Source: an uncultured Bacteroides sp.
GTDB lineage: Bacteria > Bacteroidota > Bacteroidia > Bacteroidales > Bacteroidaceae
NCBI GenBank assembly: GCA_900557355.1
Contig: USSR01000029.1
Span: forward strand, 1 to 20,627
Length of the DNA stretch: 20,627 bases
Direction: 5' to 3'
Below, one piece after another: positions 1,711 to 20,448 of the stretch. Made by a program: the position numbers and the translations under genes. The notes beneath the pieces are model-generated. The model had not been told where the DNA came from and did not search any database. It saw only the letters and a program-made list of their open reading frames with translations. How positions within the stretch are numbered: the stretch's first letter is position 1; each line of letters begins with the position of its first letter.

Positions 1711-4700
1711 ATGAAAAACAATCAATTAAAACTAATCTTGCCAGCTATTTTCCTAATGATTATGGTAGGCATACATGCGCAAAATGTACGAGTGACAGGT
1801 GTTGTGTCTGACGCACAAAGCCCATTGATTGGAGTGAATGTCCATGTGAAAGGAGGTACCACCGGTGTGATTACCGATATGAATGGAAAATATTCTATTG
1901 AGGTACCTTCTAATGCCACACTTGTATTCTCCTATATAGGTTATGCAGATCAAGAGCATAAAGTAGGCAATCGGAAAGTTATCGATGTAACCATGTCCGA
2001 AGACTCTAAATTACTGGAAGAAATCGTGGTAGTGGGTTACGGTTATCAAAAGAAAAGCGATATCGCTACTTCCGTTGCTTCCGTCAAGACTGATGAGATG
2101 AAAAGTTTCCCGGCAGGGAATGTGGGAGATATGCTCCGTGGACGTGTGGCGGGAGTTAATGTAACAAGTTCATCAGGCAGACCCGGATCTGCTCCTACCA
2201 TCACCATCCGTGGAAACCGTTCTATCAGTGCACAAAACACGCCATTGTATGTTATTGACGGTTCAGTATCAAGTAGTGAAGAATTCAGTACTTTAAGTGC
2301 GGAAAGCATTGAGTCTATCGAAATTCTGAAAGATGCAGCTTCTCAAGCCATTTATGGTGCACGAGCCAGCGACGGTGTAATTCTTGTAACAACCAAACGT
2401 GGTATGCAAGGTAAAATGGAAGTGAATTATAACGGTTATGTAGGTATTCAGTCTTTATGGCGTAACTTCGATTTTTATTCTCCACAAGAATATATGATGC
2501 TTCGAAGAGAAGCAATGGCAAACGATAAAGGCATTATTGACGCCCGCGAAATCTCTGTTGCAGAGGCTTTGAGCGACGAAATAATGAGTGAAGTCTGGGC
2601 GAACGGAGAGTTTGTCAACTGGGAAGATCTGATGTTGAAGAATGCTCTTTACCAGAACCATGATTTAACCGTACGTGGCGGAACTGACAAACTCCGTGTT
2701 TCAGCCGGCCTCAATTACTTTGATCAAGACGGTATGGTAACGACCGGCTCGGGATATAAAAAAGCAGCTTTCCGCCTAAATGTAGACTATAAAGTGAATA
2801 AATGGGCTAGTTTCGGAGTGAATACTTCCTACGCATTATCCAAAAGTGAACGTGAAGATGGAAATTTTACGGAGTTCATTACCCGTACTCCGCTGGCTAA
2901 AGTATATAATGCAGATGGTAGTTATACTAAATATATCGACACTGCTAACGATGTTAACCCACTTTACAGAGCACAGAATTATGCACGCGAAATAACGAAT
3001 AACAGCTACCGTGTCAATATCTTCCTGGAATTGAAACCTTTCAAAGGATTTAATTATCGTTTAAATACTTCTTTCTATAACAGACAGCAGGAAGATGGAG
3101 AAGTGAAAGGTGTCAATTATCCCGGTGGAGGAGCAACTGCCAAACTAACCAATAACGAACAGAGAAATTATCTGATAGAAAACATCTTCACTTATGAGGT
3201 TCCGATAAAAAAACAACAGCATAAACTGACGCTTACTGCCGTACAGTCAGTAGACCATTCTCAAACGAAAGGACTGGGATATGCCACCAGTGACTTACCT
3301 GTAGACATGGATTGGAATTTTATATCCAACGGCCAATTTTCCGGCACACCTACGAGAACATTCTCTGAAAATAACTTGGTATCTTTCATGGGACGTGCTT
3401 CTTACATATTTATGGATAGATACATAATGAATGTAGCTATCAGACGAGATGGTTCAAGCCGCTTCGGCAAGAACAACAAATGGGGCACATTCCCTTCTGT
3501 CGCCCTGGCATGGCGTGCAAACGAAGAGAGTTTCCTGCGTAATGTGTCATGGATCGATAATTTAAAACTTCGTTTGAGTTATGGTATTGTAGGTAACCAA
3601 AATGGAATTGGCAACTATACAACACTTGGGTTAACTGATCAAGAACGCTATGAATTCGGTGACAACTCATACATGGGTTATCTTCCCGGAAAAGAGCTTT
3701 CAAACCCTAATTTAAAGTGGGAACAATCACGCACAGCCAATATAGGTCTTGATTTTGGCTTCTTCAACAATCGTTTGTCAGGTACAATTGAATACTATAA
3801 TACCCGAACGACAGACTTGATCGTTAAGCGTGAAATAAACTCCGTCTTAGGATATGAACAAATGCTTGATAATTTGGGAGAAACCAAATCACATGGTATT
3901 GATATCAGTATCAACGGCGACGTCTTCCGTACAAAGAATTTCACATGGAGTTTAGGAGCTAATTTCAGTCAGTATGCTAATGAAATAGTAAAGATTGACA
4001 ATCAGGTCGATGAAAACGGTAAACCGTTGAGCCAACCGGGTAATAGTTGGTTTGTAGGTAAACCTATACATGTTTATTATGACTATTTACCGGACGGTAT
4101 CTATCAGTATGAAGATTTCGATATCAAACGAAATGCTTATGGCAAATTGGAATATGCATTGAAACCGACAATTGATACCGATGGCGATGGTATAGCTGAT
4201 AAAGCCTTGACACGCGAAGATAATGTTGCTCCGGGATCTGTAAAAATAAAAGATGTAAATGGCGATGGAAAAATAAATGCAGATGACCGTACACCTATCT
4301 CCAGAGATCCGGACTTCACACTCTCCCTAAATACAACTCTCAAATGGAAAGGTTTTGATTTCTATATGGATTGGTATGGTGTGTCCGGTCGTAAAATCAG
4401 AAATGGCTATCTCTCCGAATCCAATAGTGGTGGTTCTTTACAGGGAAAACTAAACGGCGTGAAGGTAAATTACTGGACTCCATTCAACCCTTCAAACGAA
4501 TTTCCACGACCTAGTCATAACACAAATGTCACTTATCATGGTTCCCTGGCAATTCAGGATGCTTCTTATATCCGCTTACGAACCTTGCAGCTGGGATATA
4601 CTTTCCCGACAACCTGGATAAAGAAACTCCAGCTACAGAAATTAAGAGTATATGCTACAGCAACTAATCTTCTGACATTTACAGACTTTTTGTCTTATAG

Positions 4701-4770
4701 TCCGGAGTTGACACCGGGTGCATATCCTGAATCAAAACAGTATGTATTTGGAATTAATGTTTCATTCTAA
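1711..4770 (+). CDS. SusC-like TonB-dependent outer-membrane transporter
   Basis: It imports oligosaccharides across the outer membrane, powered by TonB/ExbBD, as a complex with the SusD-like lipoprotein encoded 16 bp downstream. The 1019-residue length is typical of the family. Residues 1-24 are a signal peptide. A carboxypeptidase-D-regulatory-like beta-sandwich follows (~26-98), then the TonB-box-like segment 'LEEIVVVGYG' (102-111), a plug domain (~115-232, with 'LRGRVAGV', 'TIRGNRS', 'YVIDG' and 'GARASDGVILVTTKRG') and a 22-strand-type barrel ending in Phe ('GINVSF'). Two Asp-rich, EF-hand-like loops (D822-D826 and D848-D859) probably bind calcium, as in many SusC proteins. There is no N-terminal STN domain, so this copy is not expected to signal to an anti-sigma factor. 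The substrate cannot be read from the sequence and is inferred from the neighbouring enzymes. Confidence 0.96.
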   Translation: MKNNQLKLILPAIFLMIMVGIHAQNVRVTGVVSDAQSPLIGVNVHVKGGTTGVITDMNGKYSIEVPSNATLVFSYIGYADQEHKVGNRKVIDVTMSEDSKLLEEIVVVGYGYQKKSDIATSVASVKTDEMKSFPAGNVGDMLRGRVAGVNVTSSSGRPGSAPTITIRGNRSISAQNTPLYVIDGSVSSSEEFSTLSAESIESIEILKDAASQAIYGARASDGVILVTTKRGMQGKMEVNYNGYVGIQSLWRNFDFYSPQEYMMLRREAMANDKGIIDAREISVAEALSDEIMSEVWANGEFVNWEDLMLKNALYQNHDLTVRGGTDKLRVSAGLNYFDQDGMVTTGSGYKKAAFRLNVDYKVNKWASFGVNTSYALSKSEREDGNFTEFITRTPLAKVYNADGSYTKYIDTANDVNPLYRAQNYAREITNNSYRVNIFLELKPFKGFNYRLNTSFYNRQQEDGEVKGVNYPGGGATAKLTNNEQRNYLIENIFTYEVPIKKQQHKLTLTAVQSVDHSQTKGLGYATSDLPVDMDWNFISNGQFSGTPTRTFSENNLVSFMGRASYIFMDRYIMNVAIRRDGSSRFGKNNKWGTFPSVALAWRANEESFLRNVSWIDNLKLRLSYGIVGNQNGIGNYTTLGLTDQERYEFGDNSYMGYLPGKELSNPNLKWEQSRTANIGLDFGFFNNRLSGTIEYYNTRTTDLIVKREINSVLGYEQMLDNLGETKSHGIDISINGDVFRTKNFTWSLGANFSQYANEIVKIDNQVDENGKPLSQPGNSWFVGKPIHVYYDYLPDGIYQYEDFDIKRNAYGKLEYALKPTIDTDGDGIADKALTREDNVAPGSVKIKDVNGDGKINADDRTPISRDPDFTLSLNTTLKWKGFDFYMDWYGVSGRKIRNGYLSESNSGGSLQGKLNGVKVNYWTPFNPSNEFPRPSHNTNVTYHGSLAIQDASYIRLRTLQLGYTFPTTWIKKLQLQKLRVYATATNLLTFTDFLSYSPELTPGAYPESKQYVFGINVSF

Positions 4771-4786
4771 TAAAACCCCGCAGAAT

Positions 4787-6400
4787 ATGAAAAATAAATT
4801 ATATATAGCAGCTTTGGCAGTATCTTCCATTACGCTATTGTCTTCTTGTGAAGATTTCCTGAACCTCAAATCAAAAACAGATATTACTACTGATTATCTG
4901 ACCACCTCCCCTGACGGATTGTATCGCGCAGCGATAGGATTGTATAGCTTGGACAGAGAATTAGCCAAAGGAGACGGAAGCGGTGGCAGCAACCTCTATA
5001 TAGTAACGATGTGTGATTACAGCACTGATATTATGGCTTTTCGCGCAGGAACAAGTACCGCAATCGCAAAACTACAGAATTTCATGCCCAATAACAGTGA
5101 TGTAGAATCATTCTGGCAACACTATTATTTCATCATTGGCAAAGCCAATGAGATTATCACCGGAGCCGAACAACTAGGATTTGACGATCCTGTGACTACC
5201 CGCGCATGGGGTGAAGCTAAATTCTTCCGTGGACGTGCATATTTTGAACTATGGAAACGTTTTGAACGTCTCTATCTGAATACAATTCCTACTACAGTAG
5301 ATAATTTGGAACGTGATTTTCATCCGGTTTCCACAGAACAGATATTTACTCAGATCAAGACAGATTTGGATGATGCTGTCAATGCACTCGAATGGGGAAT
5401 ACCCAATAATGACTATGGTCGTGTTACCAAAGCTACAGCCAAACACGTGAGAGCACAGGTGGCCATGTGGGAAAAAGACTATGATAAGGCAATTGAAGAG
5501 TGCGAGGATATATTCAGAGATGGAACAATGTACTCTATGATGTCCAAAACAGGGGATGTATTCAACAGTGCGGACATGCGTTCCGCCGAAGTTTTATGGT
5601 CTTATCAGTTCTCTGAAAATATGGGCGGAGGCGGAACCGGTACCCCATTGATGGGACACCGCGCCGCAATTATTACCACTACCCGTTCCCAAGCTAATCC
5701 AGATTGTACATTTGAAGCTGCCCAAGGAGGATATGGATGGGGACGTGTTTATCCCAACACCTATTTGTTCAGTCTATATGATAAAGAAAAAGACAATCGT
5801 TATAAAGATCTTTTCATCCATACTTTTTACTATAATGACCAAAGTAAACCTAATTATGGGCAGGAAATCCCTAAAGATTTATATGGTAAGGCGGCAGGTT
5901 ATATGGAAAGACTGCACCCGATGTCAAAGAAACACTTTGACCAATGGACCAACGCGACACAACCTGACCGCACCAGCAGTTTCAAAGACCTGATTGTTTA
6001 TCGCTTAGCCGAAACATATTTAATGTGTAGTGAAGCCTATTTCCATCGTGATGGTGGCGACAGTCCCAAAGCTATAGAATACTACAACAAAACTTGGGAA
6101 AGAGCAGGTAATACTCACGAAAACGGTCCATTAACCCTCAATATGCTCCTGGATGAATATGCCCGCGAACTACACTTTGAAGGAGTACGCTGGTCATTGT
6201 TAAAACGCCTTGGTATTTTGGGCGAACGCGTTCGTCAACATGGAGGTGACCTTATGCTGGAAGACCCATATCTGGACAAAGATTATGCCGAATGCCGCCA
6301 GAACTTTGTAATAGGCAAACATGAAACATGGCCTATTCCACAAACGCAGATTGACTTGATGGGAACTAATGTCTTTCCGCAAAGTGATCCTTGGAAATAA
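4787..6400 (+). CDS. SusD-like glycan-binding outer-membrane lipoprotein (RagB/SusD family)
   Basis: This is the lid-like substrate-binding partner of the SusC transporter. I chose the ATG at 4787 (537 residues). It gives a clean lipoprotein signal peptide, K2-N3-K4, a hydrophobic core and lipobox LSSC with Cys21, and it avoids overlap with susC. An in-frame ATG at 4718 would add 23 polar residues and overlap susC. Cys21 is followed by E-D, consistent with the acidic surface-export signal known for Bacteroidota lipoproteins. Family hallmarks include the early 'EDFLNLKSKTD', the helix 'WGEAKFFRGRAYFEL' (a TPR-like element), 'RLAETYLMCSEAYF' and the C-terminal 'WPIPQTQIDLM' near 'QSDPWK'. It is co-transcribed with susC by spacing. 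Confidence 0.95.
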   Translation: MKNKLYIAALAVSSITLLSSCEDFLNLKSKTDITTDYLTTSPDGLYRAAIGLYSLDRELAKGDGSGGSNLYIVTMCDYSTDIMAFRAGTSTAIAKLQNFMPNNSDVESFWQHYYFIIGKANEIITGAEQLGFDDPVTTRAWGEAKFFRGRAYFELWKRFERLYLNTIPTTVDNLERDFHPVSTEQIFTQIKTDLDDAVNALEWGIPNNDYGRVTKATAKHVRAQVAMWEKDYDKAIEECEDIFRDGTMYSMMSKTGDVFNSADMRSAEVLWSYQFSENMGGGGTGTPLMGHRAAIITTTRSQANPDCTFEAAQGGYGWGRVYPNTYLFSLYDKEKDNRYKDLFIHTFYYNDQSKPNYGQEIPKDLYGKAAGYMERLHPMSKKHFDQWTNATQPDRTSSFKDLIVYRLAETYLMCSEAYFHRDGGDSPKAIEYYNKTWERAGNTHENGPLTLNMLLDEYARELHFEGVRWSLLKRLGILGERVRQHGGDLMLEDPYLDKDYAECRQNFVIGKHETWPIPQTQIDLMGTNVFPQSDPWK

Positions 6401-8292: not shown

Positions 8293-9843
8293 ATGAAAGT
8301 TTATTCATTCTATATCAAAGCATTGCTAGTTTGCCATGCTATTATACTCGCTTCGTGTACGGATTATGTAGTGAAAGATCCTAATTTTATGCCGCCGGAT
8401 GTTGTTATTACTGACGACACAGGTAACAATGACATCATTGAAGGGTTACCAACTCCCGGAGAAATGCAGCCTTACAGTCCTTCACTCTTAGGCAAACCTT
8501 ATCGTCCGATAAAAGTTAAGTATTCCAATGAATTTCCACCAGTGACTAAATGGACGGAGAGTAATACCCGTATTATCGCATACATGGGAGAATACAAACC
8601 TACCATTAAATCTGAAAGTGACTACAAAGCCATTACAAATAAGTATGGCAGTTTCATTTCAGGAACCAAACAACAGGCCACAGGGCGTTTTTATGTAAAA
8701 AAGGTGAACGGTCGTTGGTGGATTATCGACCCTGAAGGTTATCCACATTATGAGAGAAGTGTCACTTCCATGCGTTACGGTTCTTCGGCACGCAATAAGG
8801 AAGCATGGAACAAACGTTTTGGCACTGACGCCAAATGGATAGCAACATCACAAGCCGAATTGGCTAGTATCGGTTTTCACGGTACAGGAGCCTTTTGCAC
8901 GAATACATATGGAAAGATTCAAACTCATAATTCTTCCATTCCTAATTCTCCGTTAACGTTGACTCCTTCATTCGGATTTTTAGGACAATTCAGATCGCAA
9001 AATGGCCATACTTATCCAGGCAACACATCGGATAATGAATTGGGACTGGTACTTTATGATGACTGGCCAGATTTTTGTAAGAAATATGTAAATACGTCTT
9101 TAGCTCCTTACTTGCATGATGCCAACGTATTGGGTTTCTTCTCAGACAATGAGATCAACTTCTCATCACAAAATTCCAAAATTTTAGACCGTTTTCTGGC
9201 ACTTACGGATAAGACTGATGTAGCTTATGTTGCGGCAAAGAAATTTATGGACGAGAAAGGGGCAACAGGGGTGACTGATAACCTGAACAGTGAATTTGCA
9301 GGCCGGTTAGCCGAAATTTACTATAAAGGAGTAAAGGATGCCATTAAGGAAGCTGACCCGGACATGATGTATCTAGGCACACGCCTGCACGGTACTCCCA
9401 AATATATGAAAGATGTAGTGGCCGCCGCAGGTAAATACTGTGACATCATATCCATCAATTACTACAGTCGTTGGAGCCCGGAACTGGACTCATACGTTAA
9501 AAATTGGGGAGAATGGACAGATACTCCATTCCTAGTTACCGAATTTTATACCAAAGGACAGGATTCCGATTTGAATAATCTATCAGGAGCCGGATTCACG
9601 GTTCCGACTCAGAACGATCGCGCCTATGCTTATCAACATTTTACGCTGGGATTGCTTGAAGCAAAAAATTGCGTAGGATGGCATTGGTTCAAGTATCAGG
9701 ATGACGACGGTACAGATAACAGCGGAAAACCGGCTAATAAAGGAGTGTATGACAATCATTATGAGATGTATCCTTACTTGGGCAAGTTTATGCAGGAGGT
9801 GAATTACAATGTCTATAATTTAATTGAATATTTCGACAAATAG
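8293..9843 (+). CDS. Agarase-like (GH50-like) clan GH-A glycoside hydrolase, surface lipoprotein
   Basis: It is probably the surface enzyme that cuts the polymer before import. The start at ATG 8293 gives a lipoprotein signal peptide with lipobox LASC (Cys22), followed by T-D. After a linker rich in Pro and Asp (~25-70), residues ~115-516 resemble the beta-agarase-like TIM-barrel proteins related to GH50: 'GRWWIIDPEGYPHYERSV', 'LGFFSDNEINF', 'DIISINYYSRWSP', 'FLVTEFYTKG' and 'CVGWHWFKYQDDDGTDN'. E287 in SDNEIN is the candidate acid/base and E417 in VTEFYTKG the candidate nucleophile. Their spacing of 130 residues fits strands 4 and 7 of a clan GH-A barrel. True agar activity is not implied, because similarity to agarases is common in enzymes of other specificity. 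The length of 516 is shorter than many GH50 agarases. It lies 21 bp after the binding-protein gene. Confidence 0.78.
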   Translation: MKVYSFYIKALLVCHAIILASCTDYVVKDPNFMPPDVVITDDTGNNDIIEGLPTPGEMQPYSPSLLGKPYRPIKVKYSNEFPPVTKWTESNTRIIAYMGEYKPTIKSESDYKAITNKYGSFISGTKQQATGRFYVKKVNGRWWIIDPEGYPHYERSVTSMRYGSSARNKEAWNKRFGTDAKWIATSQAELASIGFHGTGAFCTNTYGKIQTHNSSIPNSPLTLTPSFGFLGQFRSQNGHTYPGNTSDNELGLVLYDDWPDFCKKYVNTSLAPYLHDANVLGFFSDNEINFSSQNSKILDRFLALTDKTDVAYVAAKKFMDEKGATGVTDNLNSEFAGRLAEIYYKGVKDAIKEADPDMMYLGTRLHGTPKYMKDVVAAAGKYCDIISINYYSRWSPELDSYVKNWGEWTDTPFLVTEFYTKGQDSDLNNLSGAGFTVPTQNDRAYAYQHFTLGLLEAKNCVGWHWFKYQDDDGTDNSGKPANKGVYDNHYEMYPYLGKFMQEVNYNVYNLIEYFDK

Positions 9844-9894
9844 AATAAGTTTATAACAACAAGGAACAAGTATAAATCCTTTAAAGTGATGGTA

Positions 9895-12273
9895 ATGAAA
9901 ATTAGAAAGAGAATATTAATTATAAGTCTGACTCTGCTGGCGGGTTTTACCTGTTCGGCAGGGGCAGTGACAAAGGGCATGAAGAAAGTCATTGATGACG
10001 CTCTTGATTTTTCTGTCAAACAGTCAATGTCCATGTTCAATGAGATGAAAGATCAAAAAGGCATACTTCCGAGAACAGCGGAAAATGGCAAGATGATTAC
10101 ATGCGAATCTGCTTGGTGGACAAGTGGCTTTTATCCGGGTACCCTTTGGTATTGTTACGAATATAGTAATGACCCGCAAATAAGGGCTGCCGCAGAAGAG
10201 ATGACTTCACGTGTAGAACAACAGAAATATACAACCAGTAACCATGATGTTGGTTTTATCATCAATTGCAGCTTTGGAAATGGATATCGTCTCACGCACA
10301 ATGAAACATATAGGAAAGTAATAGAGACTGCTGCCAAATCATTGTCGACCCGTTTTCATCCGGTAACAGGATGCACCCGTTCCTGGAATAGTAAAAAATG
10401 GCAATTCTCTGTTATCATTGATAATATGATGAATTTGGAACTACTCAACGTAGCTTCTTCCCTAACCGGAGACAACGCCTATTATAATATGGCCAAATCG
10501 CATGCAGACCGGACAATGATTAATCATTTCCGCCCTGATGGAAGTTCATACCACGTGGTAAGCTATGACACGATTACGGGAAAAGTTCTGAATCAGGTGA
10601 CACACCAAGGAGTAAACGATCAATCTTCTTGGTCACGTGGACAAGCATGGGGATTATATGGCTTTACAATGATGTATCGGCAGACTGGTAAAAAGGAGTA
10701 TTTGGATCACGCTATTAAGATTGGTAAGTTCATTATGAATCATCCGCGTCTGCCTAAGGATAAGATTCCTTATTGGGATTTCGATGCTCCCAATATTCCC
10801 AAAGAAGACCGTGATGCCTCTGCCGGTGCCATCATGGCATCAGCCTATGTAGAATTGAGCACTTATGTAGAAGGGGAACTAAGCAAACAGTTCCTCACAA
10901 TAGCCGAACAACAGATAAAATCGTTAGCTTCTCCTGCTTATCGCGCAAAAAAAGTAGGTGATAATAACCATTATATTATCAAACATTGTACGGGCTTCAT
11001 GGCTAAACAATATGAAATTGATGCCCCTCTGACTTATGCAGACTATTATTTTATAGAGGCATTAATCAGATATAAAAAACTACTGGAAAATCGTCCGGTT
11101 GTTGAAACAATAACAGCTTTCTCGGAGAATTCGGATCGTTCTCTCTGGTTAAGTTCACTCCATCGCATTTCTTACCCACTGTTAACGAATATGGCAAAAG
11201 GGGAACTTCGGAAGAATATGCCGGTTGAATCTATCGCTGCTGATATGCAAAAAAGAAAAGAAGTTACGCATTTGGAGGCTTTAGGAAGATTAATTACCGG
11301 GATCTCAACATGGTTGGAATTAGGACCAGACAATACAATAGAAGGCAAACTACGTGCTGAATATATTGATTTAGCCTTGAAATCCATTTCTAATGGAGTA
11401 AATCCACAATCTCCTGATTATCTGAACTTCAATAACGGACGCCAGCCATTAGTCGATGCTGCATTTCTTGCTCACGGCTTGCTAAGAGCACGCACGCAAT
11501 TATGGGACAAACTTGATAAAACGACTCAAGAACGAGTCATTAAGGAACTTAAATCATCGAGAGTGATAAAGCCTTCTGAAACCAATTGGCTATTTTTCTC
11601 AGCAATGGTGGAGGCTGCCTTGAAAGAATTTACCGGTGAATGGGAATATGAGCGTGTAAAATATGCTTGCGATCGTTTTGCACAATGGTATAAAGGGGAC
11701 GGTTGGTATGGTGATGGTGCTGATTTTCACCTGGATTATTACAATAGCTTCGTCATACATCCCATGATGGTCGAAGTTTTGGAAATAATGAAAAAAAACG
11801 GTATAGAAAGCTCTATACCTTATGATCTTGAACTCGAACGTTATGCACGCTATGCCGAACAACAAGAAAGACTGATATCACCTGAAGGTACATTTCCAAT
11901 AGTAGGTCGTTCATTGGCTTATCGATTCGGTGCTTTTCATGCATTGTCTGATGTTGCCTACAGAAAATTGCTTCCTGAAAGGGTAAAGCCGGCTCAAGTA
12001 AGATCCGCTTTATCCGCTATCATCAATCGTCAGGTTAATGCACCCGGAACATTTAATCCTGAAGGCTGGCTACGAGTAGGTTTTGCCGGATATCAACCCT
12101 ATATCGGTGAGACATACATATCGACAGGCAGTCTGTATCTATGTGCAGCCGTATTTATCGCTCTTGGTTTACCGGAGTCTGACGAGTTTTGGTCTTCTCC
12201 TTCTGCAGATTGGACCTGTAAAAAAGGCTGGGCCGGTATTGATCTGGACGTAGATAAAGCTTTAAAAAAATAG
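9895..12273 (+). CDS. GH88 unsaturated uronyl hydrolase fused to a C-terminal DUF2264 domain
   Basis: This is a two-domain exported enzyme of 792 residues. Residues 1-25 are a signal peptide (K2-I-R-K-R, hydrophobic core). I prefer the ATG at 9895 because it places this basic n-region first; ATG 9889 and GTG 9886 are in frame just upstream. Residues ~30-390 match GH88, which hydrates and releases 4,5-unsaturated uronic acid from lyase products. Candidate catalytic Asp residues are D118 in 'SNHDVGF' and D176 in 'VIIDNMMNLELL', about the spacing known in Bacillus UGL, and 'SRGQAWGLYGF' and 'DRDASAGAIMASAY' are also typical. Residues ~410-792 are a complete DUF2264 domain, with 'LELGPDNT', 'WYKGDGWYGDG', 'HLDYYNSFVIHPM' and 'YISTGSLYLC'. 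I recall this family overlapping CAZy GH154, which includes a beta-glucuronidase, but could not verify that. GH88 proteins normally end near residue 400, so the fusion doubles the usual size. Confidence 0.9.
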   Translation: MKIRKRILIISLTLLAGFTCSAGAVTKGMKKVIDDALDFSVKQSMSMFNEMKDQKGILPRTAENGKMITCESAWWTSGFYPGTLWYCYEYSNDPQIRAAAEEMTSRVEQQKYTTSNHDVGFIINCSFGNGYRLTHNETYRKVIETAAKSLSTRFHPVTGCTRSWNSKKWQFSVIIDNMMNLELLNVASSLTGDNAYYNMAKSHADRTMINHFRPDGSSYHVVSYDTITGKVLNQVTHQGVNDQSSWSRGQAWGLYGFTMMYRQTGKKEYLDHAIKIGKFIMNHPRLPKDKIPYWDFDAPNIPKEDRDASAGAIMASAYVELSTYVEGELSKQFLTIAEQQIKSLASPAYRAKKVGDNNHYIIKHCTGFMAKQYEIDAPLTYADYYFIEALIRYKKLLENRPVVETITAFSENSDRSLWLSSLHRISYPLLTNMAKGELRKNMPVESIAADMQKRKEVTHLEALGRLITGISTWLELGPDNTIEGKLRAEYIDLALKSISNGVNPQSPDYLNFNNGRQPLVDAAFLAHGLLRARTQLWDKLDKTTQERVIKELKSSRVIKPSETNWLFFSAMVEAALKEFTGEWEYERVKYACDRFAQWYKGDGWYGDGADFHLDYYNSFVIHPMMVEVLEIMKKNGIESSIPYDLELERYARYAEQQERLISPEGTFPIVGRSLAYRFGAFHALSDVAYRKLLPERVKPAQVRSALSAIINRQVNAPGTFNPEGWLRVGFAGYQPYIGETYISTGSLYLCAAVFIALGLPESDEFWSSPSADWTCKKGWAGIDLDVDKALKK

Positions 12274-12293
12274 AAGAGAAAATTTAAACACTT

Positions 12294-13679
12294 ATGATAA
12301 AAGTAGCAGGTATATTACTATGTGAGGTCAGTGTATTGTTTCTCACTTCTTATACACAAGCAAAAGAATATAAGAAGCCGAATATTCTTTTTATAATGAC
12401 CGATCAACAAAGATACGATATGTTAAGTTGTGTAGGTAACCATTATGTTAATACCCCTTCATTAGATCGCCTAGCCAGTAATGGAGTTCGTTTTGAACGT
12501 AATTACTGTGCAAATCCAGTCTCCATGCCATCACGTTTTGCAATGGTAACAGGACGTTTTGCCGGTGAAATTGGATATACAAATAATTCTAGCCAACCAG
12601 ATACTTTGGCCGTATTGCCTGCTGCACGAAAAAGCTCTATAGGAAATATCTTTCGTAATGCCGGATATAAAACACTTTATTCCGGATATGCAGGCTTCTA
12701 TTGTGGAAAGACAAATATCGAAGACTATGGATTTACGCAAAATGGAACTGATTACAATGCAGGTCCAGCAAACTTTGCTAAAAAGTTTTTTATGAACTAT
12801 AATCCCAAAGCAAATGAACCATTCTTTCTATATCTATCATTTATGAACCCACATGATATTTGTTATGGTGCTGGTTTTGATCCCAGATTTCCAAACAAGT
12901 TGCGCCCTCATCAAATAGCTGCTACACAAAAGTATATAGAATTACGTAAAACATTAAGTGATGAAGAATATCGTTCGCAAGTTCCCCCTGTGCCGGGTAA
13001 TACAGAACCTAACGGAGCATATGCTGAAATAAAGGAAATTGGCTCCGGCTCCCGAAATTGGACAGAGGAACAATGGGCCTTCTACCGTTGGATGTATTGC
13101 CGACTCGTAGAAGATGTGGAGCAACAAATCGGACGAGTTCTTGCTGCACTGGAAGAATCTGGTCTAGCAGATAATACAATAGTTGTATTCACTTCAGACC
13201 ACGGAGAAATGAACCAATCACATGGTCTTGTATTTAAAAGTCAGTTATTGGAAGAGGCTACCCGTACTCCACTTATTATTTCGGGTCCGAAAGTGAAAAA
13301 AAATATAGTGGACTCAATAAACTTGACGTGCGGAATAGATCTAGTGCCTACGATTTGTGATTTAGCTGGGATTCCTATACCCGAAAATTTGTCCGGCAAA
13401 TCATTAAAGCCAATTTTGACAGGAGAAACCAATAAAATTGATCGTAATTATATTATTATAGAGTCTAGTTCTGGTTATCAAATTAATGACGGGCGTTACA
13501 AGTATACAACTTTCACACGTGGCAACAAAAAAGAGAGTTTGATGGACATTTCGATTGATCCGGGTGAAATGTCAGATAAAAGTGCAGACTCTGCTTATGC
13601 AACAACAAAAAGACGCTTGCAACACTTGTTGATGATAGATATTAAAAGAATAACTGAAAATATTTCGGTTATAAAATGA
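12294..13679 (+). CDS. S1-family sulfatase, serine type, exported
   Basis: It removes sulfate esters from the PUL glycan or its oligosaccharides, probably in the periplasm. A signal peptide (1-23, ending TQA) precedes 'KKPNILFIMTDQQRYD', the N-terminal metal site (D37; Gln follows instead of a second Asp, a common S1 variant). The maturation motif is 'SMPSRFAMVTGR': S77 would be oxidised to formylglycine by an anaerobic radical-SAM maturase (anSME), which is not in this window. A second metal site is 'TSDHGEMNQSHG' (D302, H303). 'YCGKTN' stands where many S1 enzymes have GKWHLG, so this belongs to a different S1 subfamily from the sulfatase domain downstream. The 461-residue length is normal. 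The regiospecificity (2-, 3-, 4- or 6-O) cannot be deduced. It lies 20 bp after the GH88-DUF2264 gene. Confidence 0.93.
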   Translation: MIKVAGILLCEVSVLFLTSYTQAKEYKKPNILFIMTDQQRYDMLSCVGNHYVNTPSLDRLASNGVRFERNYCANPVSMPSRFAMVTGRFAGEIGYTNNSSQPDTLAVLPAARKSSIGNIFRNAGYKTLYSGYAGFYCGKTNIEDYGFTQNGTDYNAGPANFAKKFFMNYNPKANEPFFLYLSFMNPHDICYGAGFDPRFPNKLRPHQIAATQKYIELRKTLSDEEYRSQVPPVPGNTEPNGAYAEIKEIGSGSRNWTEEQWAFYRWMYCRLVEDVEQQIGRVLAALEESGLADNTIVVFTSDHGEMNQSHGLVFKSQLLEEATRTPLIISGPKVKKNIVDSINLTCGIDLVPTICDLAGIPIPENLSGKSLKPILTGETNKIDRNYIIIESSSGYQINDGRYKYTTFTRGNKKESLMDISIDPGEMSDKSADSAYATTKRRLQHLLMIDIKRITENISVIK

Positions 13680-13710
13680 AACAGAGTATTTATTAATCTT
13701 AGTACTGTAT

Positions 13711-15513
13711 ATGAGAAATATATTATCTATTTTATTCGCTTCACTTACTTTGTTTTCCTGCTCGGTGAACAAGTCTGCTGAAAAACAAACTACCTTCTGT
13801 AATCCAATGAATCTGGATTATGGTTGGGGAAACTTTCAGACAAGAGAAAAGAAAGCCCGTTCCGCAGCCGATCCTGTTATCGTATTGTTTAAAAACAAAT
13901 ACTACTTGTTTACCACAATGGACATTGGTGGCTATCGCGTATCTGACGATTTAATCACATGGAAGAATATATACTTTAATCCGGAGGTAAAGACGTCCGC
14001 TCTTGATGTCGATCATTATGTAGCACCAGCCGTGGCAGCCGACGAAAACTATGTATACTTCGTTAATTTCACCAGAGACCGTACCAAGAAAACGGTAGAT
14101 GTCATTCGCTCATCCGATCCGGAAAATGGGAAATGGGAGAAATGTGGTGAAGTAAGACGGATGGCCGATCCTTGTTTATTTATTGACAATGGGCGCTTCT
14201 TTTTCTATTATGGTTTAGGTGGAACTCAATCTACTACTTTCTTCGAAGTAGATCCTACCACATTCAAAGAAATAGAAGGCTCAAAAAAGGTCTTGAGAGA
14301 ATATGTAACAGATATCAATCAGTGTAAATCCGGCTTTCATTTTGGGCGTAGAGAACTGTATGATGAAATTGACGCCTCTGCCTGGCTGGGAAAATTTTCC
14401 AAAGTACCATGTCCTGAAGGTGCATGGATTGTGAAGAACAAAAATAAATACTACCTGCAATATGCCACTCCAGGTACTATCTGCAATTGGTATTGTGATG
14501 TGGTTCTGGAAAGTGATAGTGTAAATGGTGGTTTTGTAGAACAACCTTATAATCCTGTATCTCTAAAAGTCGGTGGTTTTATCGGAGGAGCCGGACATAG
14601 TTGTGTATTTAAAGACAAATACGAAAATTGGTGGCAAGTCACCTCCATGTGGGTAGGTAATCATGACGAATTTGAAAGAAGAATAGGTTTATTCCCTGTT
14701 TCTTTTGATGATAAAGGAAGAATGAGAACCCATACTGTTTTAGGGGATTATCCCATGTCACTACCTCAAAAAAGATTCAATCCTCAAGATATTTCCGCTT
14801 TTGGCTGGATGCCCCAATCCTATCATAAAAAGAGTACAGCGTCTTCTTCATTACCGGGTTTCGAACCGGAAAAGGCAGTGGATGAAAATGTTCGTACCTG
14901 GTGGTCGGCTACAAGTGGCAAAGCAGGTGAATATTTCGTAATGGACTTAGGCAAGAAGATTCGTATGAATTCCGTTCAGATAAACTTTGCTGAACAAGAC
15001 ATAAACCCTGATGCTCCCAAAGAAACAGATTATCACGCTTATAAGCTGTACGTATCTGACAATGGAAGAGATTGGAAACTAATAGTGGATAAATCAAAGA
15101 ACATGGTTGCCATACCACATGAATATGTTGAATTCCCTAAGCCGATAGAAACTTCCTTTGTTAAAATAGAGAATGTCCATACTCCCAAAGAAGGCAAGTT
15201 TGCTTTATTGGATTTGCGTGTGTTCGGTTTCGGCTATTCGGACAAACCGGAAATAGTTAAAGAACTGTCAGTAAAAAGAAACAAAGACGACGAAAGATAT
15301 GCTTCGCTTAGCTGGAATAAAGTATCCGATGCTGATGGTTATCTTGTTCGCTTTGGTTATCAGCCCGATTTTCTTAATCAATGTATCCAGGTCAAAGATA
15401 AAGAAACGACCGATTTACAGCTCCATATTCTTACCAAAGGCGTACAGTATCATTACCGAGTTGACAGCTATAATGACAGTGGAATTACAGAAGGCATCGT
15501 TATCTCTGAATAA
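13711..15513 (+). CDS. GH43-like five-bladed propeller glycosidase with F5/8 type C and FN3-like domains, lipoprotein
   Basis: It probably releases a terminal sugar such as arabinose, xylose or galactose from side chains (family-based inference). The lipoprotein signal peptide has lipobox LFSC (Cys17). The residues after it (S-V-N-K) lack the acidic export signal, so it may face the periplasm. Residues ~25-370 look like a GH43-type propeller with the expected triad: D54 in 'AADPVIVLFKNKYYLF' (base), D153 in 'MADPCLFIDNGRFFFYYG' (modulator) and E236 in 'CPEGAWIVKNKNKYYLQY' (acid). 'GGAGHSCVF' is the typical propeller closing region. Residues ~375-510 are an F5/8 type C domain ('KAVDENVRTWWSA', 'YFVMDLGKKIRMNSVQI', 'LLDLRVFG'). 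Residues ~515-600 look like fibronectin type III ('ASLSWNKVSDADGYLVRFG'). The GH43 subfamily was not assigned. The stop lies 6 bp before the next candidate start. Confidence 0.84.
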   Translation: MRNILSILFASLTLFSCSVNKSAEKQTTFCNPMNLDYGWGNFQTREKKARSAADPVIVLFKNKYYLFTTMDIGGYRVSDDLITWKNIYFNPEVKTSALDVDHYVAPAVAADENYVYFVNFTRDRTKKTVDVIRSSDPENGKWEKCGEVRRMADPCLFIDNGRFFFYYGLGGTQSTTFFEVDPTTFKEIEGSKKVLREYVTDINQCKSGFHFGRRELYDEIDASAWLGKFSKVPCPEGAWIVKNKNKYYLQYATPGTICNWYCDVVLESDSVNGGFVEQPYNPVSLKVGGFIGGAGHSCVFKDKYENWWQVTSMWVGNHDEFERRIGLFPVSFDDKGRMRTHTVLGDYPMSLPQKRFNPQDISAFGWMPQSYHKKSTASSSLPGFEPEKAVDENVRTWWSATSGKAGEYFVMDLGKKIRMNSVQINFAEQDINPDAPKETDYHAYKLYVSDNGRDWKLIVDKSKNMVAIPHEYVEFPKPIETSFVKIENVHTPKEGKFALLDLRVFGFGYSDKPEIVKELSVKRNKDDERYASLSWNKVSDADGYLVRFGYQPDFLNQCIQVKDKETTDLQLHILTKGVQYHYRVDSYNDSGITEGIVISE

Positions 15514-15519
15514 AAAGAT

Positions 15520-18085
15520 ATGGACAAAAAACTGCTTATTTATCCCCTACTCTTTTCTGCCGGGCTATTGCAAGCCCGGCAAGCAGAAACCTAATGTTGT
15601 GATTATTTTCACAGACGATCAGGGTTATCAGGATCTTGGTTGTTATGGTTCGCCATTGATACAGACACCCTTTATTGACCGCATGGCAAAGGAAGGTATA
15701 AAGTTGACAGATTTTTACGTATCATCTTCCGTATCAAGCGCTTCACGTGCGGGACTTCTGACCGGCAGATTAAATACACGGAATGGAGTAAAGGGAGTAT
15801 TTTTTCCTGAATCTGAAGGCATGCCTTCGGAAGAAATCACTTTAGCCGAAGCATTGAAAGAGCAAGGTTACACAACCGGTTGCTTTGGCAAATGGCATTT
15901 AGGTGATTTAAAGGGACATTTACCCACAGATCAAGGATTTGACTACTACTATGGCATACCATACAGTAATGATATGTATATCGGCCCTTCCCAGCAATTT
16001 GCTTCCAATGTAACCTTCAGAGAAGGCTATAATTTGTCAAAAGCGAAAGAAGATCAGGAATTTGTGAGGACTTCCAGTAGAGCAGATATAAAAAAAAGGT
16101 TGAACAACGCTTCTCCACTATTTGAAGGAGATAAAATTATTGAGTATCCCTGCGACCAGTCTACTACCACCCGACGTTATTTTGATCATGCCATAGATTT
16201 TATAGAAAATAATCCGGAGCAACCTTTCTTCGTCTATATCACCCCATCAATGCCTCATGTACCGTTGATTGCCTCCGAGCAGTTTAAAGGTAAAAGCAAA
16301 CGAGGACTCTACGGTGATGTTGTAGAAGAAATTGATTGGAATGTAGGCCGTTTACTCGATTACCTAGACCAAAAGAAATTAGCAGAAAACACTTTAGTTA
16401 TTTTCGCATCGGATAACGGACCGTGGTTGTCTTTCAAAGAAGACGGAGGTTCCGCTGAACCATTACGAGGCGGTAAGTTCTCTTATTATGAAGGAGGTGT
16501 CAGAGTTCCTTGTATCCTCCGTTGGAAAGGGAATATACCTGCCGGTGTAACTAGTGACGCAATAGTTGCCAGCATCGACCTTTTCCCTACAATCATGCAC
16601 TATGCAGGTTGCCAATCTTTCAAACAAAAGATTGACGGTATAAATATTTCATCCTTTCTCAAAAATCCTTCTCTACGGTTACGTGACGAATATGTTTATG
16701 TAAAAGGTGGTGAAGTTCACGGTATACGCAAAGGTGATTGGGTCTATTTGCCTAAAACAGGTAATAGTAAGTTCAAAAAAGGAGATGTTCCCGAATTGTT
16801 TAATCTAAAACAAGATATCGGCGAATCGAATAATCTTCATCTGCAATATCCGGACAAAGTAAAAGAGCTACAGGAAGTGATGAAGAAGTATCAATCAACT
16901 TCTACTATGCCATATTCACAAATACGTGATACTCTTAATAATGACAGACAATATTGGATTCAGACACTCGTAAAAATAGCTGATCCGGTGATAAGCAATC
17001 TTAGCAAAGACCAACTGAAAAAAAATATTCCTGTCGGGCGTTCGTCATCAGCTTTGGCCAGCAATCGGGAGTTTATCACTCACATGGAGGCTGTAGGCAG
17101 AACCATCGCAGGAATAGCACCGTGGTTGGAACTCGGACCGGACAATACTCCGGAAGGCAAGCTACGTGAAAAATATATTAAAATGACGTGCAAGGCGCTG
17201 GCAAACTCTGTAAACCCGGAATCAAATGATTATTTCAACAGCACAGCTACCCGTCAGATATTAGTAAACAGTGCATTCTTAATACAAGGGTTATTGCAAG
17301 CACCTACACAGTTATGGGGAAATCTGGATGACACCACCCGCAAAAGACTCATTGAACAGTGGAAATCGACCCGTACAATGAAACCGGGAAATAACAATTG
17401 GTTGTTATTTTCTGCCATGGTGGAGTGCGGATTAAAAGAATTTTCCGGAGAATGGAATTTTCCGACAGTAGAAAGAGCCTTGACTTCTCATAAAGAATGG
17501 TATAAAGGAGATGGCGTTTATGGAGATGGGGCAGATTTTCATTTAGATTATTATAATAGCTATGTTATCCATCCTATGTTACTGCAAATCCTGAAAGTGA
17601 CAGTAAAACAGAGGCCGTCCTTCCAGTCATTTCTGAATGAAGAATGGATACGATTTATTCGTTATGCCGAAATTCAAGAGCGCATGATAGCTCCCGATGG
17701 CAGCTATCCGGTACTAGGCCGTTCTGTCAGTTACCGTTCAGCAGCATTCCAAGTTTTGGGAGCCTGCGCCTTATTCGGAAAACTTCCGGAATCATTGAAG
17801 CCCGGACAAGTACGTGGAGCCATGACAGCCATGCTTAAGCGTCTTTTTGAACAACCGGGAACTTTCGATAAAGAAGGTTGGCTGACGATCGGAGTTTGTG
17901 GTGAACAACCGGAACTAGGAGATATTTATCTGTCTACTCCTTGCGTTTATCTGTGCTCATTAGGCTTCCTGCCCTTAGGACTCCCTGCCAATGACCCTTT
18001 TTGGTGTAATCCAGTTGAACCATGGACAAGTATAAAAGCATTTGGTGGTATCGATTTCCCAATAGACAAGTTTATTAAACCATAA
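15520..18085 (+). CDS. S1-family sulfatase (serine type) fused to a C-terminal DUF2264 domain; apparent N-terminal frameshift
   Basis: The ATG at 15520 opens a convincing 24-codon signal-peptide frame ('MDKKLLIYPLLFSAGLLQAR') that stops at TAA 15592-15594. The sulfatase body ('KPNVVIIFTDDQGYQDLG') lies one frame over from 15587, so the sequence has one base too many, or two too few, around 15570-15592. The body has no good in-frame start. The body is intact: ~832 residues. Residues coded at ~15587-16920 are an S1 sulfatase with TDDQ metal site, 'SSASRAGLLTGR' (Ser codon 15734 to formylglycine), 'CFGKWHLGD', 'SMPHVPL' and 'SDNGPW'. From ~16939 to the end is a complete DUF2264 domain. Compared with the other two copies it has 'SYRSAAFQ' for 'AYRFGAFH' and 'YLSTPCVYLC' for 'YISTGSLYLC'. 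It is either a recent null mutation, a sequencing error or a recoded gene. The sulfatase-DUF2264 fusion itself is clear. Confidence 0.85.
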
Positions 18086-18094
18086 AATAAAATC

Positions 18095-19318
18095 ATGAGA
18101 TATAGTATTTTAATTGTTGCCTTTCTGATGTTTAATCTCACAGGTTATTCACAAACAACTTCAGGGCAGGAAGACAGGATCTATTGGGTCAACATATTAT
18201 CTCAAATTGCCGACCCATTATTGAATAGCATGAGTAAAGGAGAACTAAAGAAGAACATGCCTGTAGAAACGATCTCCGGTGTGCCTAATCCATCCAATGC
18301 GCGTACCACTCATCTGGAAGCTTTAGGACGCTTGTTTGTAGGAATGGCTCCTTGGCTGGAACTCGGCCCGGACAATACACAAGAAGGACAAATACGTGAG
18401 AAATATATCTGCCTGATGATTGAGTCCATCAATCACGGATTCAATCCCCAATCTCCGGATTATCTGAATTTTACAGTCACTCGACAACCTCTGGTAGATA
18501 CTGCGTTCTTTTGCCAGGGACTATTGCGTTCCCCGAAACAAATATGGAGTAAACTATCAGCTGAAACCCAAAAGAATATCCTGAACGCTTTACAACAAGT
18601 AAGTAAGATTAAGCCGGTAGAAAGTAACTGGTTACTCTTTTCTGCTATGGTTGAAGCTACCCTGCTGGAATTGACTGGTAAATGTAATATGCATCCCATA
18701 GAGTATGCCATTATGCGGTTCAAAGAATGGTATAAAGGCGATAGCTGGTATGGTGACGGAATAAACTTACATATGGACTATTATAACAGTTTTGTCATTC
18801 ATCCAATGCTCCTGGATATTCTGGAAATCATGCAGAAACATAACAAAGGCGAAACCGACCTTTATAAAAAAGAACAGCTACGTTTCTCCAGATATGCCGA
18901 ACAACAAGAAAGAATGATTTCTCCGGATGGAGCATACCCTGTAATCGGCCGTTCTATAGCATACCGTTTTGGAACATTCCATGTACTTTCAACAGCAGCT
19001 CTTAATGATTTGCTACCAACTACCATTACCAAGTCACAAGTCCGATGCGGACTAACTGCTGTCATAAAAAGGCACATGGCTATAAAAGGGAATTTCGACG
19101 AACATGGATGGCTGACTTTAGGGTTTGCCGGACATCAACCTTCAATCGCTGAAAGATACATTTCTACTGGCAGCCTGTATTTATGCTCTACTGTATTCAC
19201 AGCATTGGGACTTCCCGCTACTGATGAATTCTGGAGTGCCCCTTATGCGGAATGGACAGGGAAAAAGATTTGGTCAGGTAATCCGAATGTAAAATTGGAT
19301 AAAGCAATAAAATTATAG
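18095..19318 (+). CDS. Stand-alone DUF2264 protein (probable glycosidase, possibly GH154-like)
   Basis: This exported protein of 407 residues has a signal peptide at 1-20 (ending GYSQ) and then one DUF2264 domain over almost its full length. Conserved elements shared with the two fused copies are 'MSKGELKKNMPVE', 'WLELGPDNTQEGQIREKYI', 'NWLLFSAMVEA', 'WYKGDSWYGDG', 'HMDYYNSFVIHPMLLDILE', 'RYAEQQERMISPDGAYPVIGRS', 'AYRFGTFH' and 'RYISTGSLYLC'. The helical pattern suggests an (alpha/alpha) barrel, the fold also used by GH88 and GH105 (inference). I recall that CAZy GH154, containing a Bacteroides beta-glucuronidase, covers these proteins, but could not check it. A role in removing a terminal uronic acid would fit the neighbours. 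It starts 9 bp after the stop of the sulfatase-DUF2264 gene. Catalytic residues are not known to me; the invariant Asp and His in 'YGDG..(H)xDYYNS' are candidates. Confidence 0.88.
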   Translation: MRYSILIVAFLMFNLTGYSQTTSGQEDRIYWVNILSQIADPLLNSMSKGELKKNMPVETISGVPNPSNARTTHLEALGRLFVGMAPWLELGPDNTQEGQIREKYICLMIESINHGFNPQSPDYLNFTVTRQPLVDTAFFCQGLLRSPKQIWSKLSAETQKNILNALQQVSKIKPVESNWLLFSAMVEATLLELTGKCNMHPIEYAIMRFKEWYKGDSWYGDGINLHMDYYNSFVIHPMLLDILEIMQKHNKGETDLYKKEQLRFSRYAEQQERMISPDGAYPVIGRSIAYRFGTFHVLSTAALNDLLPTTITKSQVRCGLTAVIKRHMAIKGNFDEHGWLTLGFAGHQPSIAERYISTGSLYLCSTVFTALGLPATDEFWSAPYAEWTGKKIWSGNPNVKLDKAIKL

Positions 19319-19341: not shown

Positions 19342-20448
19342 ATGAAAAAGATTCTTGCCTTATTTTTAGTATCAATAAATTGTAGCCTGAATGCTCAACA
19401 ACTTTTTTCATCAAAGATGGAGAAAGAAGATAATACCAAAGTTTGTAATGCCGTATCCGAATGGCAAATTACCCATCACAACGAAGTAAAACATAATCCG
19501 CTGGACTGGACAAACGGCGCCCTGTATCGTGGAATGACAGAATGGGGAAAAGTCTCGGGAAATCAATCTTGCTATGACTTTGTCCGTACTATCGGCGAAA
19601 AGCATAAGTGGAATATGTGGAACCGTGTATATCATGCCGATGATATTTGTGTGGGGCAAGCATTCATCGAGATGTATCGCAGATTTGATGATAAGCGTAT
19701 GCTACAACCGGTAATGGAACGCGCTTATTATGTGGCTTCCCATCCTTCGAAAGCTCCGCTACAAAAGACAGATGCTGTGGGAACAACGGAACGTTGGTCA
19801 TGGTCGGACGCCTTGTTTATGGCACCTCCGGTTTATGCGGCTCTATACACGATAACCGGAGATAAAATCTTTCTGAATTATATGGACAGTGAATATATAG
19901 AGTGTGTAGACTCACTATATGACAAGGAAGAACATCTTTTTTATAGAGATAATAAACGAATTCCCCTCCGTGAGAAAAATGGTAGCAAACAATTCTGGGG
20001 AAGAGGTAACGGTTGGGTATTTGCCGGACTTCCTCTTATTGTTGACAATTTGCCTCTCAACTGTTCTTCACGTAGCTACTATATCCGGCTATTTACTGAA
20101 ATGGCGGAAGCAGTTCGTAAAACTCAATGCAAAGACGGGGACTGGCGCACCAGCTTACTAGATCCTGATTCGTATAATATGCCCGAAAATAGTTGCTCTG
20201 CCTTTATGTGTTTTGGCATTGCCTGGGGAATCCGTAATGGCTACCTGCCCCAACGAACCTACAAACCTGTACTTGAAAAAGGTTGGCAATCATTAGTAAA
20301 AGCTGTTCATTCTGATGGAAAATTGGGATATATACAACCTGTTGGTGCCGCACCCAAAGCTGCCGGTTTCGATGCAACAGATGTATATGGCGTAGGTGCT
20401 TTCTTATTGGCAGGAAGCGAATTATACAAATTGTCATGTGCTTACTAA
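19342..20448 (+). CDS. GH105 unsaturated rhamnogalacturonyl/glucuronyl hydrolase
   Basis: It hydrolyses the 4-deoxy-4,5-unsaturated uronic acid from the non-reducing end of lyase-produced oligosaccharides, after import. The length of 368 is standard for YteR-like GH105. A signal peptide (1-19, ending NAQ) indicates a periplasmic location. D101 in 'VYHADDICVGQ' and D156 in 'ERWSWSDALFMAPPVYAAL' have the same 55-residue spacing as D88 and D143 of Bacillus YteR; D156 would be the catalytic proton donor. 'QFWGRGNGWVFAGL' and 'DVYGVGAFLLAGSE' are further family motifs. It is the last gene of the run, 23 bp after the DUF2264 gene and 16 bp before the hairpin. GH105 members act on pectin fragments, ulvan and other uronides, so the sugar partner is not fixed by the family. 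Together with the GH88 domain it implies a polysaccharide lyase elsewhere in the locus. Confidence 0.94.
   Translation: MKKILALFLVSINCSLNAQQLFSSKMEKEDNTKVCNAVSEWQITHHNEVKHNPLDWTNGALYRGMTEWGKVSGNQSCYDFVRTIGEKHKWNMWNRVYHADDICVGQAFIEMYRRFDDKRMLQPVMERAYYVASHPSKAPLQKTDAVGTTERWSWSDALFMAPPVYAALYTITGDKIFLNYMDSEYIECVDSLYDKEEHLFYRDNKRIPLREKNGSKQFWGRGNGWVFAGLPLIVDNLPLNCSSRSYYIRLFTEMAEAVRKTQCKDGDWRTSLLDPDSYNMPENSCSAFMCFGIAWGIRNGYLPQRTYKPVLEKGWQSLVKAVHSDGKLGYIQPVGAAPKAAGFDATDVYGVGAFLLAGSELYKLSCAY

Follow-up and report, generated by a model that had tools for sequence, protein, structure and literature searches.

We analysed a polysaccharide utilization locus (PUL) of an uncultured Bacteroides species, contained in contig USSR01000029.1 of assembly GCA_900557355.1 (positions 1 to 20,627; the window below means this whole stretch of 20,627 nucleotides), which is of the Bacteroides type and runs on the + strand. 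It encodes three DUF2264 domains (Pfam PF10022): one fused to a GH88 unsaturated glucuronyl hydrolase (copy A), one fused to an S1 sulfatase (copy B) and one standing alone (copy C). The likely explanation, in our judgement, is that the three are uronate dehydratases of the family of BcGDH from Bacteroides caccae, copy A being bifunctional together with its GH88 half and copies B and C forming a pair that feeds the adjacent GH105 hydrolase. This explanation builds on homology, the fold of copy A, the retention of active sites, gene order and fusion history.

Copy A (795 residues, 9886..12273) consists of the GH88 domain (residues 31-403, 9976..11094) and the DUF2264 domain (residues 417-776, 11134..12213); the ATG at 9895, with which the initial annotation began, is in frame, but the open frame starts at a GTG at 9886. 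Copy B lies in an open frame at 15299..18085, with the S1 sulfatase domain at open-frame residues 98-437 (15590..16609; PF00884, 210 bits) and the DUF2264 domain at open-frame residues 549-909 (16943..18025). Copy C (407 residues, 18095..19318) is matched by PF10022 at residues 27-387, and its N-terminus is hydrophobic and, judged by eye, resembles a signal peptide. PF10022 covers model positions 1-353 in A, B and C, with 388, 360 and 385 bits against a curated cut-off of 25 (E-values of 4.2e-116, 1.2e-107 and 4.6e-115, respectively), and the motifs GPDN, YGDG, DYYNS and IHPM occur once in each copy, as had been noted in the initial annotation together with the completeness of the domains. Protein identity is 50.5% (A-B), 55.8% (A-C) and 48.8% (B-C), and codon-aligned DNA identity is 56.5%, 59.2% and 55.1% in the same order. 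Protein searches with A and B gave 1679 and 1311 matches, of which the best 120 each were listed, that is, 142 different proteins. A tree of 103 domains, made from 28 randomly drawn GH88-fused proteins and all other domain types after exclusion of near-duplicates and of the chimeric fragment P0038, places A, B and C in three different old clades, each with orthologues elsewhere: 34 rows for A (support 99/97), 13 rows for B (100/100), including the first halves of P0001-type proteins, and 8 rows for C (100/100), including their second halves; the branching between these clades has lower support (84/94 and 86/89). The recent tandem duplication against which the initial annotation had argued is thus ruled out.

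'GH154' was reassigned in 2025 to β-D-glucuronate dehydratases, with BcGDH as exemplar (PMC12269599; our statements on the characterized enzymes follow excerpts of that paper). According to these excerpts, clean BcGDH preparations have no glycosidase activity; they convert a terminal β-glucuronate into a Δ4,5-unsaturated residue, which is then removed by BcGH88, and BT_3677, the founding GH154 member, also dehydrates methyl glucuronide. With this role published and structures deposited (9o4u and 9nwf for BcGDH, and 8oi4), the family is no longer the poorly described one that the initial annotation took it for. The DUF2264 domain of copy A, the only copy included in the fold comparison, has the fold of 9o4u. 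We mapped by alignment the ten BcGDH residues whose alanine mutants are inactive, and found 9 of 10 kept in A, 10 of 10 in B and 9 of 10 in C, including the proposed catalytic Tyr229, Arg285 and Tyr289 in all three; the sole varying position is N176, occupied by Thr in A, Asn in B and Ser in C. The nine other residues are invariant in 101 of the 103 domains. The two exceptions are the first halves of the tandem proteins P0126 and P0129, in which Tyr289 is lost from the first DUF2264 domain; this domain is perhaps a non-catalytic partner. On these grounds the three domains of the window are very probably dehydratases that act directly before uronide removal and produce the substrate of GH88 or GH105 enzymes, so that of the two placements offered by the initial annotation, before or after that step, the first is favoured.

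We infer the catalysis, the order of the steps, the assignment of each dehydratase to a hydrolase and the role of the sulfatase, as follows. The DUF2264 half of A would remove water from a saturated terminal β-glucuronate, leaving a Δ4,5-unsaturated residue that the GH88 half would next hydrolyse off as 5-keto-4-deoxyuronate; a single exo-acting, bifunctional chain would hence achieve what a glucuronidase does, through an elimination and a subsequent hydration. Copies B and C would be a matched pair of dehydratases, each suited to a different uronate environment and most likely feeding the adjacent GH105, while the sulfatase half of the B protein probably takes off a sulfate on or beside the uronate.

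The association of B with C is constant. The two are adjacent in the window, in G001, the nearest genome compared, and in all five named loci with a whole copy B (L036, L037, L039, L041 and L042), each of which also contains a GH105. Across 149 Bacteroides genomes, a sample that overlaps these five loci, C stands beside 7 of the 8 copies of B that have ≥76% identity, and the eighth lies at a contig edge; a B-type domain is followed by a C-type domain on one protein in 9 of the 142 listed proteins. In the excerpts of PMC12269599, BcGDH is a tetramer in which a Tyr is donated by the neighbouring subunit. Such adjacency, tandem fusion and quaternary structure would also suit a hetero-oligomer, one dehydratase built of two unlike subunits B and C, which we regard as possible but doubtful: the nine constant active-site residues are kept in both B and C, which fits two working enzymes equally well, and the tetramer interfaces are, by the same excerpts, not conserved in the family (PMC12269599). 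Two positions differ between the lineages. BcGDH position 134 is Asn in 13/13 rows of the B lineage, and in the 90 others Asp (85) or Glu (5). Position 175, where the Tyr of BcGDH can contact the second sugar (PMC12269599, excerpts), is Glu in copy A of the window and in 8/8 C rows, Asn in 11/13 B rows, and still Tyr in 11/11 GH105 fusions. These differences are hints of different aglycones. One may go further and imagine a locus that works with no classical glucuronidase, through an eliminative single-chain 'glucuronidase' (A) and the B/C pair, in which Asn134 of B would accept a (just-)sulfated uronate and the S1-DUF2264 protein would desulfate and dehydrate one residue in one pass; we hold this extension to be rather unlikely. 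Directly after the B/C pair, two of the named loci (L041:12408-14390 and L042:12383-14353) encode a protein of about 660 residues with no Pfam match.

The GH88-DUF2264 protein is best read as a dehydratase and an unsaturated-uronyl hydrolase on a single chain. Its GH88 half scores 32.6 bits with Pfam and matches PDB 3wiw with E 6e-106; the GH88 fold is present, and Asp121 and Asp179 align with the catalytic aspartates of unsaturated glucuronyl hydrolases. This architecture accounts for 112 of the 142 listed proteins. The others comprise 13 with DUF2264 twice, 10 with DUF2264 alone as judged with our probes, 5 with S1 and DUF2264 plus 1 with an internal duplication, and 1 in the reversed order DUF2264-GH88 (P0108); within the 'alone' group we observed a GH16-like C-terminal domain (P0130, P0137), a lipocalin-like C-terminal domain (P0131) and one protein with SusC-type Pfam domains. 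Among 151 genomes of the same taxonomic family, 81 have a DUF2264 match, and 11 of the 29 loci with the strongest matches (L006-L034) encode GH105-DUF2264 fusions, which group on the side of BcGDH in the tree, apart from the GH88 fusions; union with an unsaturated-uronyl hydrolase therefore arose more than once, and both kinds of fusion are old and recurrent. Separate genes show the same association. Across 40 genomes with 47 DUF2264 genes, at least 14 of these genes have a PF07470 match within 10 kb, where 1.67 would be expected (Poisson 3e-9); leaving G001 out gives 11 of 44, where 1.45 would be expected; the 14 of 47 is a lower bound, since 92 of the 200 PF07470 matches were used for it and all 200 for the expectation, and two short DUF2264 fragments (G040 and G063) were excluded. 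The excerpts of PMC12269599 likewise report GH154 genes frequently near GH88 and GH105 genes in STRING.

The two halves of A could still act on different residues, the GH88 half finishing unsaturated ends that a lyase has made elsewhere and the fusion merely tying expression and export together. GH88 enzymes usually act after lyases (PMC12269599, excerpts), and the S1 and DUF2264 genes of this very locus show that neighbours may fuse by simple deletion. We nevertheless consider this improbable, as neither the window nor the scanned proteins of G001 yielded a lyase family (the latter are not all of its genes, and one of 1006 residues has no assigned catalytic domain), and as the GH88-DUF2264 join is old and paralleled by the GH105 fusions and the reversed-order protein. 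Least probable of all is that DUF2264/GH154 proteins are true β-glucuronidases or β-galactosidases, whose fusions would combine two hydrolases that act independently, or join one to a sulfatase: although 8oi4 was deposited as a β-galactosidase, the excerpts of PMC12269599 trace the aryl-glycosidase activity of preparations to contaminants such as LacZ, find no acid/base-nucleophile layout and demonstrate dehydration for two members, and the recurrent partners hydrolyse unsaturated uronates, GH88 and GH105 enzymes that would be idle after a normal glucuronidase.

Several points weigh against the dehydratase explanation as a whole. The dehydratase assignment comes from one laboratory, and earlier reports named a β-glucuronidase or a β-galactosidase. 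N176, a residue required in BcGDH, is substituted in A and C. The 142 proteins are not a random sample, because similarity to A and B determined their ranking, and 33 of the 47 DUF2264 genes have no GH88 or GH105 match within 10 kb in the match list used. Finally, the GH88-DUF2264 fusion is rare per species: it was detected in at least 2 of 393 genomes of the order (E ≤ 1e-180) and at least 1 of 395 of the phylum (E ≤ 1e-190), both lower bounds from strict cut-offs with at most two candidates scored per genome. A similar search for GH105-DUF2264 gave 6 of 393 genomes, one row spanning the whole fusion and five the DUF2264 part only. The proviso attached to the novelty of these fusions by the initial annotation, that they not be commonplace, thus applies only in part: GH88-DUF2264 is common among the listed proteins yet rare per genome.

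The S1-DUF2264 fusion has a different history, and the 'repeated fusion' that the initial annotation treated as one phenomenon falls into two, the old and recurrent GH88 and GH105 fusions and a young, local one. Only 6 of the best 120 S1 relatives, out of 7974 matches, carry DUF2264, all at ≥81% identity. Within the 149 Bacteroides genomes, where at most six candidates were scored per genome, an intact S1-DUF2264 fusion is found in 2 and an interrupted one in 1, while the S1 and B-type DUF2264 genes are separate neighbours in 2 and lie on different contigs in 1. The named records with the fusion are Bacteroides sp. 51 and one metagenome-assembled genome; in B. oleiciplenus the two parts are on different scaffolds and in B. 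clarus they are split, the sulfatase stop codon being followed by a spacer and then by a DUF2264 gene that encodes a signal peptide of its own. Fused forms lack this stretch of stop codon, spacer and signal peptide, and its loss between neighbours explains the fusion. In P0124 the linker is shorter, and this protein clusters with the split forms (95/41), for which reason a second fusion or a fission is possible. By these sequence comparisons S1-DUF2264 is a young fusion of neighbouring genes, seen in our surveys in just a few Bacteroides, and therefore gives little evidence for a general coupling of desulfation to DUF2264; it fits two steps on one substrate. One 977-residue S1-DUF2264 protein (P0104, one member sequence) has a partial internal duplication of DUF2264 and is possibly an assembly artefact.

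In the window, copy B is not a clean frame; intact homologues exist in G001 and in the database. The frame is broken within 15522-15600, between the signal peptide and the sulfatase domain; compared with G001, a small insertion puts the likely start, the ATG at 15522, in a different frame from the sulfatase domain. Either an assembly error or a real inactivation is compatible with the data. Sulfatases of the formylglycine type carry the motif C/S-x-P/A-x-R; the translation of B contains SSASR, and that of the stand-alone S1 sulfatase of the locus SMPSR.

The closest known system is BcGDH with BcGH88 of B. caccae (9o4u, 9nwf), which shares with the window the family, the fold, 9-10 of the 10 active-site residues and the class of partner; in B. 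caccae, however, dehydratase and GH88 are separate proteins (PMC12269599), whereas the window joins them in a single chain and has three copies of the dehydratase in its locus. In ulvan degradation, P29_PDnc and GH105 follow the same logic of dehydrating a terminal uronate and then removing the unsaturated form, but P29_PDnc is unrelated in sequence to the BcGDH family and separate from its GH105 (same excerpts). The heparin-specific unsaturated glucuronyl hydrolase 3wiw, unlike copy A, was deposited as a single-domain chain without a dehydratase. In excerpts of PMC12316285, Bacple_01684 of the B. plebeius porphyran locus PUL-PorC is labelled GH105|GH154 and adjoins the GH50 Bacple_01683, much as a hydrolase-GH154 protein stands beside a GH50 in the window; the comparison is one of label and neighbourhood, not of sequence, the excerpts give Bacple_01684 no function, and copy A is clearly a GH88. 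The family, its dehydratase role, the co-location with GH88 and GH105 and the GH105|GH154 label are thus already published. For a dehydratase and GH88 on a single chain, and for S1-DUF2264, we found no description in the collection of open-licence papers searched, which lacks most subscription journals, nor any paper there that uses the name DUF2264. PMC12269599 uses 'fusion' and 'fused' a single time each, in neither case about a dehydratase-hydrolase fusion; the text of PMC12877422 contains neither GH154 nor dehydratase, and that of PMC10807430 no GH154.

If the dehydratase explanation holds, more than 100 protein clusters annotated DUF2264 or GH154 would be eliminative uronate removers, and a domain that is still catalogued without a known function would gain a directly testable role. 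The prediction of glucuronate-containing PULs would change, because a locus with neither lyase nor glucuronidase could still clear terminal glucuronate. The GH88 and GH105 fusions offer the cleanest route to proof, one chain taking a saturated glucuronide to 5-keto-4-deoxyuronate, and the S1 and B-type DUF2264 genes, which some Bacteroides have fused and others separate, are a natural experiment on what the fusion contributes.

The gene arrangement by itself does not identify the glycan, contrary to what the initial annotation had hoped. Clues in the window are the GH50 beside copy A, the GH43, the sulfatases and the ulvan-type GH105; just upstream of copy A, B. clarus encodes a GH2 and a protein resembling glucuronyl esterases, and in the examined DNA of L036 and L037 no GH50 match was found, though the core of the locus is retained. 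We considered a glycosaminoglycan linkage, porphyran and arabinogalactan, and none is supported by the evidence. A sulfated arabinogalactan protein would fit the locus by analogy, a gut Bacteroides having been reported to require a sulfatase for the use of such proteins (PMC8406133, excerpts).

The remaining genes complete the locus. The window opens with the C-terminal piece of a CBM96/F5_8C protein (1-1596), followed by SusC (1711-4770) and a SusD-like protein (frame 4718-6400; together 1711..6400), a BACON/Lcl_C protein and a GH50-type protein (8293..9843), whose nearest solved structure is 5t3b, which we take to be the B. plebeius GH50. Between copies A and B lie the stand-alone S1 sulfatase (12294..13679; PF00884, 164 bits) and a GH43 with an F5/8C and a weak fn3 match (13711..15513), which adjoins S1 in every locus where both were detected; in the structure-database comparison the nearest solved chains of both sulfatases are mixed. 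The GH105-type unsaturated-uronyl hydrolase (19342..20448; nearest solved structure 4ce7, ulvan) comes directly after copy C. G001 has 43% of the sampled words of the window in common, and its locus has the same gene order minus the stand-alone sulfatase, at 95.1-96.6% DNA identity. Further upstream it encodes a two-component regulator, a GH2-type protein, a SASA esterase and a whole CBM96/F5_8C protein of 1006 residues (L004:2362-5382), homologous to window 1-1596. This homologue matched no agarase structure and so does not support a GH86 agarase as the identity of the first protein of the window; for the middle part of the homologue, neither a Pfam match nor a solved relative at E 0.1 was obtained, and the protein is perhaps a member of an unassigned enzyme family. 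The stand-alone S1 gene (window 12294-13679) has no counterpart at the same place in G001 and is unmatched in L036 and L037; B. clarus (L039) and B. oleiciplenus (L040) do carry it, so that its presence varies within a single locus.

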